Both the position numbers and the translations under genes were made by a program. The notes under the pieces were generated by a model. The model saw only the letters and a list, made by a program, of their open reading frames with translations, made no database searches and was not told the DNA's origin. This document shows positions 56,216 to 64,000 of a stretch of DNA of 64,000 bases, in pieces. The stretch is from Synechococcus sp. M44_DOE_062 (lineage in GTDB: Bacteria; Cyanobacteriota; Cyanobacteriia; Thermostichales; Thermostichaceae), in contig DVDX01000017.1 of NCBI GenBank assembly GCA_015295985.1, positions 1 to 64,000 of the forward strand. The letters are read 5' to 3'. Numbering within the stretch: the first letter of the stretch is position 1; the number at the start of each line of letters is the position of its first letter.

Positions 56216-56758
56216 CTAGTCTTCTGCATCTGTTCCACCTGCACAAGCCGGGTCGTTGTCCTTGCGGATAGTGCCTATCAAGGTGCTCACCACCACGCAG
56301 CGGTTCTCTCCCTGGGAGTAGGTGCTGCTGACCACAAAGCGACCCAGTTGACGGGCGCGGCCATCGGATTCAAAAACTGCCTGCCCACCACTGAAGTTGT
56401 TGGCCGCAGTTACAAAATTGTTTAGGCGCACTCGCTGACAGGGGGTGGGTTCATCGCAGAGGCCCTGCTCATCCTGAATGACCAGAGTTGGCACGTTCGG
56501 GTCTGAATTGTCCACCCCCACCACCCAAGCTCGGCCCAGGAGAGAGGCTCTGGCATTGGTGCGGGCAGTGCGCAAGGCTCGCTCCACCCTGTTCTGCGCA
56601 TCCTCTAGCTGGATCCGGGCCCAGATATTGATCCCAGAGGGAACGGCCAGCACAGCCAAGATGCCGATGATGACGATAACCGCCAAGACTTCTATCAGCG
56701 TAAAGCCCTTCGTCTGGGCAGGTGCAATCCGTCTAAATTCGCTCACCGAGGCCAACAT
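56216..56758 (-). CDS. GspH/FimT-like prepilin (HpsD-like)
   Basis: About 180 residues from the ATG giving MLASVSEFRR. A type III-style prepilin motif, KGFTLIEVLAVIVIIGILAV, with cleavage after Gly and the conserved Glu at +5, is followed by a globular C-terminal domain (VVGVDNSDPNVPTLVIQDEQ; two Cys pairs). It is the last of three prepilin genes downstream of an HpsA-like gene. That order resembles hps loci, where pseudopilins act in polysaccharide secretion linked to type IV pili and gliding. Confidence 0.8.
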   Translation of the reverse strand: MLASVSEFRRIAPAQTKGFTLIEVLAVIVIIGILAVLAVPSGINIWARIQLEDAQNRVERALRTARTNARASLLGRAWVVGVDNSDPNVPTLVIQDEQGLCDEPTPCQRVRLNNFVTAANNFSGGQAVFESDGRARQLGRFVVSSTYSQGENRCVVVSTLIGTIRKDNDPACAGGTDAED

Positions 56759-56797
56759 AGGTAGGAATCCCCCTCCGGGCAAGTTAGATGGGCTTGA

Positions 56798-57889
56798 CTA
56801 GGCTTGACGATTAAACACACCACGGGCCAACACCTGAGTTTGCATCGCCGTCAAATACCGCGACACCTGCTCCGCATCAACGCTGGTGGCATCTTGGATG
56901 TAGCGCCGGAACAAACCAGGATTGGAGCGCTCCATAGCGGTTGCCGTGATGGTGACAATCACATCTTGGGGAAGACTTGCGGCGTCACTGCGCCGGACGC
57001 AAACATGGAAGCCCACGTCGTTTTCATTGTTTCCTAGGCCGGAAAAAGTGACACCACTAGGCTTTCCCCCTCCAAAGGCGTAGCCTTGCGGGCAATTCGG
57101 CGCAACCTGCGGACTTCCCTGCCGGCTGCTGAAGATGTTGGAGACCAGAGTTACCAGTCGATTACCTTGATTGCCTGCTTCAGCAATGGGATCTTGGCGA
57201 GCCATAGCTTGCTCAGAGGGCCAAACCAGAAAGCCCTCCCGGTAGGGATCCGGATCCTCGACAAAAAATTGGCTGCGCTCAGTGCATGCGTCATTAAGAG
57301 GTTGCAACTCAAACCTAGCAATGCGCGCGTTGCCCTCCCAGGGGGTGCTGCCGTCTGGGTTACCGGCGTTGTTGTAGTTGCGCCGCAGGTAGTACACAAC
57401 CAAGGTGTAGATGTTGCGGCGGCTGCGAATGTTTTCCCAATCAGATTGGGAAATGCCTGAAGGTCTTTCCTTCAAAGTTACTCGGCCTTCTCGGACTTGT
57501 TGCAACGTCGGAGGGCCTTGATAGCAATCGCGTGGGATTGGGTTCAGCTTCCAAAAGGCGACAACCGGAACGGCACCCTCGGGGCGGTGAATCCAGCCGG
57601 GTGTGTAAAGCTTTTGAATGAGATCTGGCGTTCCGTCTCCGTTGGGCTGTTCTGCATCGTTGTAGATGTAGAGCGCCTCCGCCAGATCTTGCTGGATATA
57701 CTGCATAGCCTGGGTCAGCTCTGCCTGCACCTGGGTGCGCCCTGTCTCTTCCCGATCCACCCGCATGGTTTCAATGACGATCATGCCGGTGGCCAACAGA
57801 AAGATCGAAGCTACCACCAGCGAGACCAAAAGCTCGATAAGGGTAAACCCCGCATTCTTGTAAACCCTGTGGCGAAAAACCTTGAACAT
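56798..57889 (-). CDS. PilW-like prepilin (HpsC-like)
   Basis: A 363-residue protein with the N-terminal prepilin motif NAGFTLIELLVSLVVASIFL at residues 12-31 and a large C-terminal domain. RVDREETGRTQVQAELTQAM and QYIQQDLAEALYIYND match the PilW/HpsC pattern. It lies between HpsB-like and HpsD-like genes on the same strand. A partial dispersed-repeat-like sequence (AAAGGCGTAGCC) occurs near 57075. It is a probable minor pseudopilin processed by PilD. Confidence 0.82.
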   Translation of the reverse strand: MFKVFRHRVYKNAGFTLIELLVSLVVASIFLLATGMIVIETMRVDREETGRTQVQAELTQAMQYIQQDLAEALYIYNDAEQPNGDGTPDLIQKLYTPGWIHRPEGAVPVVAFWKLNPIPRDCYQGPPTLQQVREGRVTLKERPSGISQSDWENIRSRRNIYTLVVYYLRRNYNNAGNPDGSTPWEGNARIARFELQPLNDACTERSQFFVEDPDPYREGFLVWPSEQAMARQDPIAEAGNQGNRLVTLVSNIFSSRQGSPQVAPNCPQGYAFGGGKPSGVTFSGLGNNENDVGFHVCVRRSDAASLPQDVIVTITATAMERSNPGLFRRYIQDATSVDAEQVSRYLTAMQTQVLARGVFNRQA

Positions 57890-57939: not shown

Positions 57940-58695
57940 TCAAGTCGAGGTAGGGCTTGGGCTGGGCAGCGGGAAGGCATTGCAGTTGTTGGTCGGTGTT
58001 CCACCCCTGGCTTGAACATCGGCCAAAACGGCGCGGCAAACATCCCCTAAATTGGCGGCTAGGTTAATCTCTACAATCGAGCTGGCCATGGGAAACAGCC
58101 AAACATCGGCATTGGCCAAGTTCTGGTTGGCAGAGACCGTCTCGGTTCGCAGCCCAGGAAGAGCCTGCCGAGTGGTTGGGTTAAAGGAAAAGCGGTGGTA
58201 CACCCTCACCCCCAAAAAGAAAGAGCAGGGAACCCCTGGGATGACGGTGTTGTTGCGCCGGTCAATGCATTCCCCGCCCCTATCCCGAAAGGTTTGGATG
58301 AGGTAGATTTCGGGGTTTCGCCCTGGTACTTGAACTTCAGCCAAACGAATGGAGTAGTTGGGGCCAGGGTTGTCCATGTCGGCAGGGGGCGGGGTGTTGC
58401 GCAAGGGGCTTGCCCCAATCCTGGGCAGACGGGCCAACTGAGCTGGGTTCTGGAAAGCGCCTGGGTTGGCGGCCAGTTCCAGGTCAACCAGGGTGCGGAT
58501 GCGATCCACCTCGGCCCGGGCCAGTTGATTGGCCACTTCTATCCGCTCGGTCATGGCCCGCCGATAGGCAATCAGGGTGAGGGCAGGGGCAAGAGCGGCC
58601 ATGGCCAAAGCCACAATGACCACCGAGGCCAAGACCTCAATGAGAGTAAAGCCTTCTGCCTCCAATTGCTGCCGCAAAAGCCGCCACTTTTTCAT
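57940..58695 (-). CDS. PilV-like prepilin (HpsB-like)
   Basis: A 251-residue protein starting MKKWRLLRQQLEAEGFTLIE; GGAGGAGAT directly precedes this ATG, so a six-codon longer start is rejected. Cleavage is expected after EG, leaving FTLIEVLASVVIVALAMAAL. The C-terminal domain has RLAEVQVPGRNPEIYLIQTF and paired Cys. It lies 65 bases downstream of the HpsA-like gene and is probably co-transcribed. Confidence 0.85.
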   Translation of the reverse strand: MKKWRLLRQQLEAEGFTLIEVLASVVIVALAMAALAPALTLIAYRRAMTERIEVANQLARAEVDRIRTLVDLELAANPGAFQNPAQLARLPRIGASPLRNTPPPADMDNPGPNYSIRLAEVQVPGRNPEIYLIQTFRDRGGECIDRRNNTVIPGVPCSFFLGVRVYHRFSFNPTTRQALPGLRTETVSANQNLANADVWLFPMASSIVEINLAANLGDVCRAVLADVQARGGTPTNNCNAFPLPSPSPTST

Positions 58696-58760
58696 ATCTC
58701 CTCCAGCACTCACCCAGATCTGCCCTACCTAGAATCTACCCCTGGCTTGGGAAGTCAATA

Positions 58761-61700
58761 TCAGTTGAACTCATTACAGCCTCCAATCCGAGCGGCGGCC
58801 TGCAGAGGCACGTCTGACTGAGCCTGCAACCCGCAGCGCAACCGCCGCACATACGGATCCTGAGGATCCAGCTCCCGCAAGAACTCGGTGCGGGCATTGG
58901 AGGGGAATTGGAAGCGGGCCGACACCGAGCTGGGACGGCGGGCAATTTGCAGACCCACATCGTAGCCAAAGCGGCGATTGGGCGGGAAGTAGTAGTCGTA
59001 GCCGCGCACAAAGGTTGGATCTTCCACCAAGTTGGGCGGCTCAAAGCTCTGCTGCAGGAAGGGGCCGGTGGCGTAGGTGCTGTAGTTGAGCTGGATCATC
59101 GAGCCGCTGAAGAAGAGGTTGGTATTTCTCCACAGCTCGTTGAGGCGCAGGAAGTTGTGCATGCCGCCGGCAGTTTGACCCAACCGCGAGGGCAAGGTGC
59201 CACTGATGGCAATGGCATTCACCCGCGTTTCCCTGGCCGGCTGGAGCTGCCGGTTTTGGCTGCCATCGTCGCTGCGACGGCGTTGGTTCGGGTCAGTGGA
59301 GGCCAGCTCTTGGAAGCGGGGAATGGGAATGGGCCGACGGGTCACCTCGTCCAGGATCACCCCCAGCACGGGGTTATTGCCCGCAAAGCCGGTGGTGGGT
59401 TGATTGATGTTGAGGGTGTACGGCTCCACATCCACCCAGACCAAGCCACCGTCGTCGCCGCCGTTGCGGTCGATTTGAACTTGGATGGTGTTGCCATTGG
59501 GCTTGACGTAGAAGCACAGGCCGTTGCGGATGTCTTCACGATCATCATTCCCTTTGCTGTCGATTTTGCTGTCGATGTAGTAGCCGTCCGCGTATCTGGA
59601 GTTGGGGGCGTAGCCCTGAGCCGTAGCAGTCTTGTTGACGCGGGCGTAGGGGTTGAGGGCCATTTGCGGCTGAATTTCTAACTGAACGGGGCTGCCGGGA
59701 GGCTCAGAAACCAGATCCAGCCCGAATAGCGGATCCCGATCTAGAATCTCGTCCGGATCCGGCTGCCTGTTGCCGTTTTTGTCTTCAAAGCGCAAAGTGC
59801 TGGGACGGCTGGCACCGGTGTAGGCGGTGTACTTAAAGCGGTCGTTGAAATTGGGTCGAAACACCCCCGGCACCCAGAAGCCGCCGTCGGTGGAAGTGAC
59901 CTTTTCTTCTGAGTCACAGCGAACAGTTCCATTGGGATTGAGCAATCGCCGCCGCAGTTGCTTTGCCCAGTCGTCGCTGCCTACGCCGGGAGTTCCCGCA
60001 ATCGGAGAAGCACCACTCTCGGCAGGGCGGATGCCCGGCTCTTTGCTGGGGTTGGCGATCTCGCTGAAGAGCAGATTGCCCCTCAGTCCGGCGCGGGCAG
60101 CATAGGCCGGCTCGCCAAACATCCAATTGAAGGCCGCCTGCAAGGCCTCGGCAGGGCTAGGCCACTTGGGCGGCTTGGGCACCCCGGCTTTCACCTCCAG
60201 CACCGGAGAAAGCTCCGGCTGCAGAGCAATGGTTACGCCTTCGGCAGGAGCGGCAGCCACTGTGTTTACGCTGAGGGTCTCCGGCTCCGGATCCGCTTGG
60301 ATTTCCCAGACAGGGCGCAGATCCACTGTGTTGGGCTTGGCTGCCATCCATTCGCCCAGAGGGCTCTCGGAAGGCGCTTCTGGGGCAAAAGTGCTGGGCC
60401 CGCAAGGCCTGCCTTGACAGGTTAAAGATCGTGTCTCCGTTTTGGTGGCCTGGCAGGTGGGGCTGCTGGTATTGTCAATGCGGGTGCCCGTCCGGGTTTG
60501 GGTAAACGTTCTGGTTGTGCCACAGGCAATCTGGTCGATGACCTCATCGCAACTGGCCGGCGACCAAGGTCCCCAGTTGTAGTTGCAAGTTTGCGGGCAG
60601 GTAACCGTTTGGGTTTGCTGCCTGGTGGTGGTTCCGCAGATCGAGGTGCAGGTCTCAGTGCGGGTTTGGGTTATCGTCTGGCCACCGTTGGCCACCGTGC
60701 ACTGAGGAGTCCAGCCTGTATCGGTGCAGGTAGCATCCGGAGGTTGGCAGGTGATGGTTTGGGTTTGGGTTTCGGTGAAGGGGCTTTGGCTGGTACAAAG
60801 CGGCGTTACCAGGCGGCTGCGGGTTTGGGTAATGGTGGCTCTGCTGCACTGCTGCTGCTGGGTACACGAAGGCGACCAATTCGACCAAGACCCGTAGCTG
60901 TACTGAGGGGAACAGGTAATCTCTCGGGTTTGCGGCGGCGGCGGGGTGCCAGGGCAACCGGCAGGCAAGGTGGCCGTTTTGGTTTGAGTGATGTTGGTGG
61001 CCACACAGATGTCGCTCCGACATGGAGGATTCCAGTCTGTCCAGATGGGATCGCAGTTGAGGGTGACTTTGCAGTACCGCTGGTTGTCTTCCAGAGGTAT
61101 AGTCGGATCCGGCTGGCAAGGCTTGTTGACCGGCATCAGCGGCTTCAGGTATCGCAGGTCGTAGTCTTCCCACTCGCTGTCATCGCGGGTGGCAAAGCGC
61201 AGCCGAGCATTGCCGGTATTTTCGTAAGTTTGGATCTCTATCAAGTAGGGCGAGGACTTGTTTGGATCCGCGCACTCCAGATCCAATCGCAGGGCAACCT
61301 CGTTGCTGCCGCTATCCTGCCAGGCTTCGGCCCCTGCCGCGTTTGGCCCTAGGCTGAGGTTAGTGCCCCTCCAAACGGCATCGAGTCTAAAGGTGGCATC
61401 GGAGCCGTCCCGCCGCCGAATGATCAGCCGCACGCCATCGTCGCCCTCGAAAATGCGGTAGGTCTGCAGGCCCGGCCAACGGGGATACAGCTCCCCTACC
61501 CAGCGCACCACGAAGAAGTCGTTGCCGTTGTTGTTGCCATTCGGCCCTCCCCCACTTCTACGCCGCCAGCAGGAACGCCAGAAGTTGATGAAGTGACTCG
61601 GGAAGTTGAGGTCATCTGCATCGGTCGGCTGATTGTTGCCATCGGGCTCCCCACAACTGGGCATCCAAAACCAATCGCCGCGATCCCGCCGATCAGGGCT

Positions 61701-64000
61701 GCCAGGTGGCACCGACAGGCGGCAGGATGGCTGCGGGATGTCAGACAAAGAGTCGTTGCAGTCGGGGAGATTGTTATACAGCCGCCGCTTGAAAGGCGAG
61801 TTGGAGTTTATATCTGGGCTGTTGCCAAAAAAGTACTGGAAGCCTCCCCACCAGGGGTAACCACTGCCGCTGCGGGCAAAGGGGGCTAGGTTGCTCGGAT
61901 TATTGATGGCATCTCGCACGCAGGCCCAGCGTTGGTCTTTGCTACTACCATCTGTTGAATTACAGGAGGGGGCACTGCTGGTATAGGCGTTGTCGAACTG
62001 ACCAATGGCGTCAGGCACTCCTTGCGCCGGGAACACCGGATCCGGCCAGCGCACCGCCCGCAGGTAGGGCAGGTTGGCATTTTGGGCGTCTGGAGGCAGG
62101 GGACCTACGGCTCCGCTGGCGGCAAACCCTGTATTGCGGTTGTACTGGTTCTGCGGGCTGGTCAGCCAGCCATTGTAGTACTCGGCCAGCAACCCAGAGA
62201 ACCCAGGGCCGCGGGGATTCGGGCAAGGCCCAGGCGGAGCCACCAGCACCCAGCGAGAAGTATCCAGCACCGGGTTGCCCAAAGCGGAGATGCGGGTGCC
62301 AAAGTTGGCATAGCCCACATCGGGTGCCCGCAAGGGCCGCACTGCCGGCGCGCCACCGCCTGCTGTTCTATCGTCATTATTGGGATCCGAATCGGCGTTG
62401 TCGAAACGAGCCAGAATGGTGTCGCGGGCAAACACATCCGGCCAACCCGGCTGGTTGAGGTTGTCGCCCAGGTTCTGGGCACCGTTCGTGTTGTCAAAGC
62501 GCAGAACGCCAGCACCGCTGTTATTGGGATTCGGAGCGGGCCAGTTGTTGCCCCGGATCACCAGCGCTTGGTTGAGGAAGGAAGTGTTGGCTCCTAGGTT
62601 ATTTCCACTGCAGCCGTAGTAGTCGCTGCGGCGAGGTGCTGAGGCTCGTCCACCTGCGTAGTTTTGTCCAGGTGCATAGCTGGTGCCGCCGCCATTGAGG
62701 GTGCCATCCTGCACAAAGCCATCGTCAAGGCTGCCGTCGCAGAAATCGGCAGAGAGGATGTTCACCGAGTCGCCCAACACGTCGCTGGGCCGCCAGAGAT
62801 CGTCCGCCGCCCGGGCAAAGCGCCGGTCTTCATCGGCCCGCATCCGCCCGTAGAAGTTGCTGTAGAGGCCATCTGCACCGAAGTTAAGGAGAGTTCTGAA
62901 CTCCTCCAGCCGCTGCCCGTTCTTCGTTTGGTGCAGGTTAAAGTCCCCTTGGATATAGACGGGGTTATCGGAAACAAAGGAGAGGCCAAAGATCGCGTCA
63001 TCAGGGTTGAACCCACCCCGGGCCAGCACCGCCCCGTTGCGCAGCCGGAAGCCATAGGGCCGCCGATCCGGATCGGCGTAGTAGTCCACCGGCTTGGGGC
63101 TAAGACCTTGCTCGGAAACAGGGGGATCCCAGACCGTTTGGCCGTTGGCTGTGCCTCGATTCGGCTGACCGGCGTTCATAATACCGGCGCTGCCTAAGTT
63201 GCCGCGGGCTTTCCCGGCCCGCCAGTTGGCCAGGTAACCGGCAAAAGAGCCCAAGGGTGGGCGGGCAATGGCATCTTCCCGCACGGCATCTTCCCGGAAG
63301 GCGTAGAAAATACCCCCTTCTCGACCCTCGCCAATGCCGGCAGGCAGCCAAGTATCCCCGTTGATGAACCCGTTGGCCTGTCCGTTGACATTGTTGGTCA
63401 GTAGGGCCAGGTCAATGTTAAGCGCCCGCACCGCCATCGCCTCGCGGCCATCGTAAAAGACGGAATCTTTGAAGGGCACGCGATGGCACTGGTTGCCGAT
63501 CCGAATTAGCTCAACCTGGTTGCTGTTGGGGCCAGCAGCGGTGCAATTAGCCTGGGCGTGGGGCAAAGCCCAGTTGCCAATTCCAGAGCGGGGCTGCAAA
63601 GCAACCTCTTTTAGGTTGGCTATAGCCTCATATCTAACTGCACCTGAAAGGAAGGAGTAAGCGTTGCGCCGCTCGCGCTCTAGAGAATCCGTCTGGTCGA
63701 AAGTAGTGGTCGGGAAGATGTAGCGCAACGGCAGATAGAACCGGTTGGCCGCCTCTCGGTTCCCAGCTCGGCTTGCTTGAATGTCCTTCCAGAGGGTTTG
63801 AGCCGTTGGATCCCCGGCATTGGCAGCCGCCTCAATGCGCAGAATGTTGTCCGCCAGCATGCCCACCATGCAGCCTGCCGTTTGCAGGGTGGTTTGGTCG
63901 GCCAGGCTCAGATTTGTCGGGTTATCAATCACCCGCCGCAGCTCCGAGAAGTTGCCAAAAGCCGTAATAAACGGATCCGGGTGAATGCGGCCTGCCTCTT
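58761..64000 (-). CDS. HpsA-like giant surface/secretion protein, 5' end beyond the window
   Basis: At least 1746 codons, open to the right edge, so the N-terminus is missing. Start of visible part: EAGRIHPDPFITAFGNFSEL. The regions RRNAYSFLSGAVRYEA, VRALNIDLALLTNN, PVYIQGDFNLHQTKNGQR and the C-terminal FLRLNELWRNTNLFFSGSMI match the HpsA family known from hormogonium polysaccharide loci. Two insertions stand out. One is a PA14-like region (FSGLLAEYYNGW near 62190 to YRIFEGDDGVRLIIRR near 61440). The other is a Cys/Thr-rich tandem segment (60400-61060) with W-x-x-W-x-x-x-C motifs like thrombospondin type 1 repeats. Followed by three prepilin genes. Confidence 0.85.
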   Translation of the reverse strand, partial: EAGRIHPDPFITAFGNFSELRRVIDNPTNLSLADQTTLQTAGCMVGMLADNILRIEAAANAGDPTAQTLWKDIQASRAGNREAANRFYLPLRYIFPTTTFDQTDSLERERRNAYSFLSGAVRYEAIANLKEVALQPRSGIGNWALPHAQANCTAAGPNSNQVELIRIGNQCHRVPFKDSVFYDGREAMAVRALNIDLALLTNNVNGQANGFINGDTWLPAGIGEGREGGIFYAFREDAVREDAIARPPLGSFAGYLANWRAGKARGNLGSAGIMNAGQPNRGTANGQTVWDPPVSEQGLSPKPVDYYADPDRRPYGFRLRNGAVLARGGFNPDDAIFGLSFVSDNPVYIQGDFNLHQTKNGQRLEEFRTLLNFGADGLYSNFYGRMRADEDRRFARAADDLWRPSDVLGDSVNILSADFCDGSLDDGFVQDGTLNGGGTSYAPGQNYAGGRASAPRRSDYYGCSGNNLGANTSFLNQALVIRGNNWPAPNPNNSGAGVLRFDNTNGAQNLGDNLNQPGWPDVFARDTILARFDNADSDPNNDDRTAGGGAPAVRPLRAPDVGYANFGTRISALGNPVLDTSRWVLVAPPGPCPNPRGPGFSGLLAEYYNGWLTSPQNQYNRNTGFAASGAVGPLPPDAQNANLPYLRAVRWPDPVFPAQGVPDAIGQFDNAYTSSAPSCNSTDGSSKDQRWACVRDAINNPSNLAPFARSGSGYPWWGGFQYFFGNSPDINSNSPFKRRLYNNLPDCNDSLSDIPQPSCRLSVPPGSPDRRDRGDWFWMPSCGEPDGNNQPTDADDLNFPSHFINFWRSCWRRRSGGGPNGNNNGNDFFVVRWVGELYPRWPGLQTYRIFEGDDGVRLIIRRRDGSDATFRLDAVWRGTNLSLGPNAAGAEAWQDSGSNEVALRLDLECADPNKSSPYLIEIQTYENTGNARLRFATRDDSEWEDYDLRYLKPLMPVNKPCQPDPTIPLEDNQRYCKVTLNCDPIWTDWNPPCRSDICVATNITQTKTATLPAGCPGTPPPPQTREITCSPQYSYGSWSNWSPSCTQQQQCSRATITQTRSRLVTPLCTSQSPFTETQTQTITCQPPDATCTDTGWTPQCTVANGGQTITQTRTETCTSICGTTTRQQTQTVTCPQTCNYNWGPWSPASCDEVIDQIACGTTRTFTQTRTGTRIDNTSSPTCQATKTETRSLTCQGRPCGPSTFAPEAPSESPLGEWMAAKPNTVDLRPVWEIQADPEPETLSVNTVAAAPAEGVTIALQPELSPVLEVKAGVPKPPKWPSPAEALQAAFNWMFGEPAYAARAGLRGNLLFSEIANPSKEPGIRPAESGASPIAGTPGVGSDDWAKQLRRRLLNPNGTVRCDSEEKVTSTDGGFWVPGVFRPNFNDRFKYTAYTGASRPSTLRFEDKNGNRQPDPDEILDRDPLFGLDLVSEPPGSPVQLEIQPQMALNPYARVNKTATAQGYAPNSRYADGYYIDSKIDSKGNDDREDIRNGLCFYVKPNGNTIQVQIDRNGGDDGGLVWVDVEPYTLNINQPTTGFAGNNPVLGVILDEVTRRPIPIPRFQELASTDPNQRRRSDDGSQNRQLQPARETRVNAIAISGTLPSRLGQTAGGMHNFLRLNELWRNTNLFFSGSMIQLNYSTYATGPFLQQSFEPPNLVEDPTFVRGYDYYFPPNRRFGYDVGLQIARRPSSVSARFQFPSNARTEFLRELDPQDPYVRRLRCGLQAQSDVPLQAAARIGGCNEFN

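Follow-up and report, generated by a model that had tools for sequence, protein, structure and literature searches.

An HpsA-like protein of a Thermostichaceae-type Synechococcus carries a split PA14 domain and TSR-like repeats and is a candidate pilus-tip adhesin

The hpsA locus

The window, by which we mean the whole 64,000-nt stretch of DNA analysed here, ends inside a large minus-strand open reading frame that occupies 58761–66104 of the same contig and encodes 2,447 residues from an ATG at 66104; an alternative GTG start at 66140 would give 2,459 residues. The window holds the 3′ part of this gene (58761–64000, minus strand; residues 703–2447), and the 5′ part lies beyond it. The full-length protein scores 502.4 bits (E = 2.9e-150) against the NCBIfam HpsA model NF038301, above the curated cutoff of 400, and is HpsA by this measure, whereas the window-encoded part alone scores 276 bits and falls below the cutoff. 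A sequence-only reading of the window had proposed an HpsA-like protein at this place; the open reading frame and the family name both stand, but the strand is minus and the frame runs beyond the end of the window to 66104.

Two blocks of the protein are shared with HpsA proteins of other cyanobacterial families. The N-terminal block comprises residues 1–1282, of which residues 703–1282 fall within the window (62259–64000, minus strand), and is 33–45% identical to HpsA of other families over the longest matches. The C-terminal block (58764–59525, minus strand; residues 2194–2447) is 38–52% identical to other HpsA proteins in most of the matches listed.

Downstream of hpsA, on the same strand, lie genes for an HpsB-like pilin of the GspI/PilV type (57940–58713; NF038303, E = 1.7e-11), which adjoins hpsA in relatives, an HpsC-like pilin of the GspJ/PilW type (56798–57889; NF038304, E = 4.4e-28) and a GspH-like pilin (56216–56782; N_methyl, E = 1.3e-6; GspH, E = 0.0025). 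The two partners by which an HpsA operon is recognized, HpsB and HpsC, are therefore both present, though neither reaches its NCBIfam cutoff. The order of the genes is the same in all five genus relatives, and hpsA-hpsB-hpsC-gspH is recognizable in most other families examined. The N_methyl model detects five clear pilin genes in the genome, three of them in the hpsA operon, and does not detect HpsA itself. The N-terminus of HpsA (RERGFVLPVAILIVLVLSLVTVGLL) is hydrophobic and PilX-like and lacks Glu5; the PilX_N model aligns in register at the N-terminus of four orthologues with E values of 0.12–0.32, which are below significance. PilY1 was detected in none of six genomes.

The tip complex of type IV pili is made up of four minor pilins, of types H, I, J and K (FimU, PilV, PilW and PilX). 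The composition of the hpsA operon would fit this set with HpsA in the place of K/X. As in the pairing of PilX/GspK tip pilins with PilY1, we see a four-gene minor pilin set, a large subunit without Glu5 and an adhesin-like part; here, in contrast, the adhesin-like modules are built into the pilin-like protein.

A long stretch between the conserved blocks

Approximately 911 residues separate the two conserved blocks, whereas the same interval spans ~7–165 residues in most other cyanobacterial HpsA proteins, as judged from match coordinates. HpsA of filamentous cyanobacteria (NF038301; Nostoc punctiforme Npun_F0066) shares both blocks and likewise has hpsB and hpsC downstream, most loci also with a gene for a GspH-like pilin, but the protein studied here has in addition this long insert with its PA14 and TSR-like modules. 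Most other HpsA proteins lack both segments, which therefore are not part of a universal HpsA core, the outcome that the sequence-only reading had named as a refutation of its own proposal.

The insert is present in all five genus relatives, whose proteins have 2,413–2,505 residues. In all but the closest relative, the core is mostly 70–95% identical and the insert mostly 40–75% identical; judged from these alignments, the insert evolves faster than the HpsA core, as expected of a ligand-facing part. GC content is even along the gene (0.57–0.62) and lends no support to a recent import of the insert. Its last portion, residues 1909–2193 (59526–60380, minus strand), holds no recognized domain. 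In a metagenome-assembled relative (G007), the hpsA homologue is spread over several open frames through apparent frameshifts.

Five divergent HpsA proteins from other families have unrelated stretches of 480–1,556 residues at the same place, some of them with Pro-Thr linkers. The idea that these five inserts are ice-binding or Calx-beta domains found no support in Pfam, where the best matches reach E = 0.05–0.08 and none passes its cut-off. The occurrence of unrelated large stretches between the HpsA blocks in other families hints that modules may be exchanged here more generally.

A PA14 domain split by an insertion

The part of the insert next to the N-terminal block is related to PA14 domains. 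The earlier reading had placed a PA14-like segment at 61100–62210, and we find it almost exactly there, at 61137–62207 on the minus strand. The first part of the domain (62013–62207; GLLAEYYNGW ... RAVRWPDP) is assigned from alignments, including a weak one to GLSAEYY of 6qe7. It is separated from the main part (61137–61562; DFFVVRWVGELYP...DDGVRL...YLIEIQTYENTGNARLRF) by a Trp/Cys-containing insertion of ~150 residues (61563–62012), delimited by alignment, which is missing in one relative (G006), is shorter in G007, varies in length and matched no known family.

A profile built from six genus sequences and searched against the PDB gave two significant matches, both to RsgI structures (6qe7, E = 8.3e-8; 6qdi, E = 1.2e-6). 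In hhalign, the main part matched a set of eight PA14 domains from cyanobacteria, including one confirmed in Pfam at 3e-35, with a probability of 98% (P = 2e-13) and with the Asp-Asp pair aligned. Pfam PA14 (PF07691) returned no match in the HpsA protein, and the best relative reached 17 bits against a gathering score of 24, probably because ~150 residues split the domain. G006, which belongs to another genus of the same family, has an uninterrupted PA14 domain at the same place, directly after the HpsA block. The AlphaFold model of the domain has a mean pLDDT of 40, with values of 50–68 across most of its C-terminal half; the top 14 Foldseek matches to this model are all PA14/Flo5 (Flo/Epa-type) lectins, followed by both RsgI structures. 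We regard PA14 homology, as originally guessed, as well supported, although a model of such low confidence would be insufficient by itself.

Asp1555-Asp1556 (61437–61442) align with the Asp-Asp pair of PA14 lectins, in which the DcisD motif binds calcium and sugar (PMC8092209). In our alignment, this pair and the PA14 strand motifs are retained in five of six genus members. The motif is altered in three of eight sequences, namely G002 (GDGG), G006 (DN) and G007 (GA); sugar binding need not, then, be a general property.

The PA14 dyads of RsgI share the sequence profile of the PA14 core with HpsA, but they form a tandem sensor on a clostridial anti-sigma factor, whereas HpsA has a single, insertion-split PA14 domain in a pilin-like protein. 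The MpPA14 lectin of a Marinomonas adhesin and the yeast Flo5/Epa adhesins resemble HpsA in its predicted PA14 fold, its Asp-Asp motif and its proposed adhesin context. They are type I-secreted or wall-anchored and thus differ from HpsA in their anchoring, and sugar binding by HpsA is putative. Many filamentous cyanobacteria encode other PA14 proteins; in several of these, a sugar-dehydrogenase-like sequence comes after tandem PA14 and Calx-beta-like repeats.

Four cysteine-rich repeats with a predicted TSR-like fold

Adjoining the PA14 domain is a segment of 252 residues (60381–61136, minus strand; residues 1657–1908) that nearly coincides with the Cys/Thr/Gln-rich segment marked earlier at 60400–61060. 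It contains 22 cysteines, as many as the other 2,195 residues of the protein (8.7% versus 1.0%; Fisher p = 2e-11). A unit of ~50 residues, W-x-x-W-[ST]-P-x-C ... TQT[RK] ... TC, occurs in four full copies on the minus strand, at 60903–61055 (unit 1, E = 7.4e-18), 60738–60899 (unit 2, E = 1.5e-18), 60588–60728 (unit 3, E = 2.3e-13) and 60411–60584 (unit 4, E = 1.9e-16); these E values (1e-13 to 1e-18) come from a unit profile, A10, whose training set included the query protein itself. The segment also holds four copies of [TN]QT[RK] and four of [WYF]xP(A)xC, and 10,000 shuffled versions of it never reached either count.

Among 390 Cyanobacteriia, the repeats were found only in the cyanobacterial family to which this genome belongs, in 7 genomes; beyond these seven, the two or three matches to the repeat are weak, most of them running across stop codons, and a search of plasmids gave no relative of the segment. 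Repeat number varies, and in G001 and G003 at least one repeat is absent or altered. Apart from short runs, the repeats show no tandem duplication at the DNA level and hence are not recent copies.

AlphaFold predicts the segment with a pLDDT of 82, from an alignment of three sequences only, in which the rows other than the query come from two loci. The top 13 Foldseek matches to this predicted model are all thrombospondin type 1 repeats (TSRs) of properdin (E = 1.5e-4 to 0.018), in keeping with the original guess of a TSP1 fold. Over 60 aligned columns, one properdin chain matches with an rmsd of 4.9 and 27% identity; TM-scores over whole chains are low, which differing angles between the units would explain. 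Like properdin TSRs, the repeats are tandem units of ~50–60 residues, in the model with a W-x-x-W strand followed by two long strands. They differ in having mostly four to five cysteines per unit rather than six, one Arg/Lys (in TQT[RK]) rather than an Arg ladder and no sequence match at the Pfam level. W-x-x-W is present in three of the four units, the TSR pattern of six conserved cysteines with a Trp/Arg ladder in each unit is not kept, and G007 has Phe/Tyr in place of Trp.

By sequence, the evidence for a relationship to TSP1 is weak. Nothing in the HpsA protein reaches the gathering score of Pfam TSP_1 (PF00090; 21.6 bits), and a unit from G005 scores 11.8 bits. For two units the sole Pfam matches are TSP1 models, at E = 0.14–0.3. 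Shuffled units give chance matches to other families down to E = 0.005, with no TSP1 model among ten shuffles; the matches are therefore suggestive solely through the families that they name. A TSP_1 search of eight genomes left hpsA unmatched and gave weak matches elsewhere only. Against the PDB, the segment profile yielded a single chance match (E = 1), and the unit profile matched no chain at E < 10. In the HMM comparison proposed at the outset, PDB and profile-profile searches recover PA14, but neither PA14 nor TSP1 passes its Pfam cut-off in the HpsA protein. Given the weak sequence evidence for TSP1, we describe the repeats as TSR-like in fold without assigning them to TSP_1.

The same observations leave a good chance, if somewhat short of even, that the repeats are a separate cysteine-rich type, only superficially TSR-like through convergence or because AlphaFold forces the fold on W-x-x-W. 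The missing Pfam and PDB matches, the cysteine count, the Phe/Tyr substitutions in G007 and the low whole-chain TM-scores would all suit such an origin; a high pLDDT obtained from only three sequences, and a list of Foldseek matches headed by 13 TSRs, argue against it. Because this alternative concerns where the stalk came from, it is compatible with the function that we propose below.

Discussion

On balance, and by a modest degree, we favor the interpretation that HpsA is a subunit of the type IV pilus tip whose PA14 lectin, borne on a TSR-like stalk, grips sugars of the mat. HpsA would be a giant PilX/GspK-like subunit, seated at the pilus tip together with HpsB, HpsC and the GspH-like pilin; its display on the pilus is suggested by the operon and the pilin-like N-terminus. 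The PA14 head and the adjoining stalk of four TSR-like, putatively disulfide-rich repeats would project from the HpsA body, and the head could bind vicinal diols of exopolysaccharide through a calcium ion held by Asp1555-Asp1556. Extension of the pilus, a grip on sugar and retraction would then move the cell or anchor it in the mat. That the host lives in hot-spring mats is presumed from its kinship with relatives. According to a review (PMC12288463), the core minor pilins assemble into a complex at the pilus tip, and the polysaccharide HPS is likely the surface to which pili attach.

The same tip-subunit proposal can be taken further, with cyanobacterial HpsA as a giant K/X-type tip pilin that replaces PilY1 and in whose middle slot adhesive modules are exchanged; in this hot-spring lineage the slot would be occupied by a lectin on a stalk of true thrombospondin-type repeats. 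We regard this extended version as rather doubtful. Thrombospondin-type repeats are a module best known from animals.

We also consider it unlikely that HpsA and HpsB-D build a pseudopilus for polysaccharide secretion in which the inserts hold or guide polysaccharide during export. The family name and annotation and the link of hps genes to polysaccharide through mutants speak for secretion, and a PA14 lectin might retain such cargo; however, whether HPS exits via PilQ or a Wza-type exporter is unclear, cells are not driven forward by secreting it (both from a 2025 review, PMC12288463), and the genome seems to hold one minor pilin set, which the ordinary pilus would need. It is similarly improbable that the extra stretch is a mere spacer, serving to make the subunit longer or to withstand heat and proteases, its PA14 fold no longer sugar-binding: the altered Asp-Asp motif in three of eight sequences, the variable repeat number and the insertion that breaks up PA14 would agree with this, but the PA14 strand motifs and the Asp-Asp pair are kept in five of six genus members, and a plain spacer has no need of a lectin fold.

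In this small genome, what is apparently the sole minor pilin operon codes for a subunit bearing a recognizable lectin, and the proposed function can thus be tested with one gene and one purified domain. The protein is a molecular candidate for the grip of hot-spring mat Synechococcus on polysaccharide, and its repeats may represent a TSR-like fold in a bacterium.

Directly upstream of hpsA and in the same direction, beyond the window at 66246–66842 in contig coordinates, lies a gene for a LuxR/NarL-type response regulator. It is kept in all five genus relatives (85–94% identity) and in G006 (70%), and it may control the hpsA operon.
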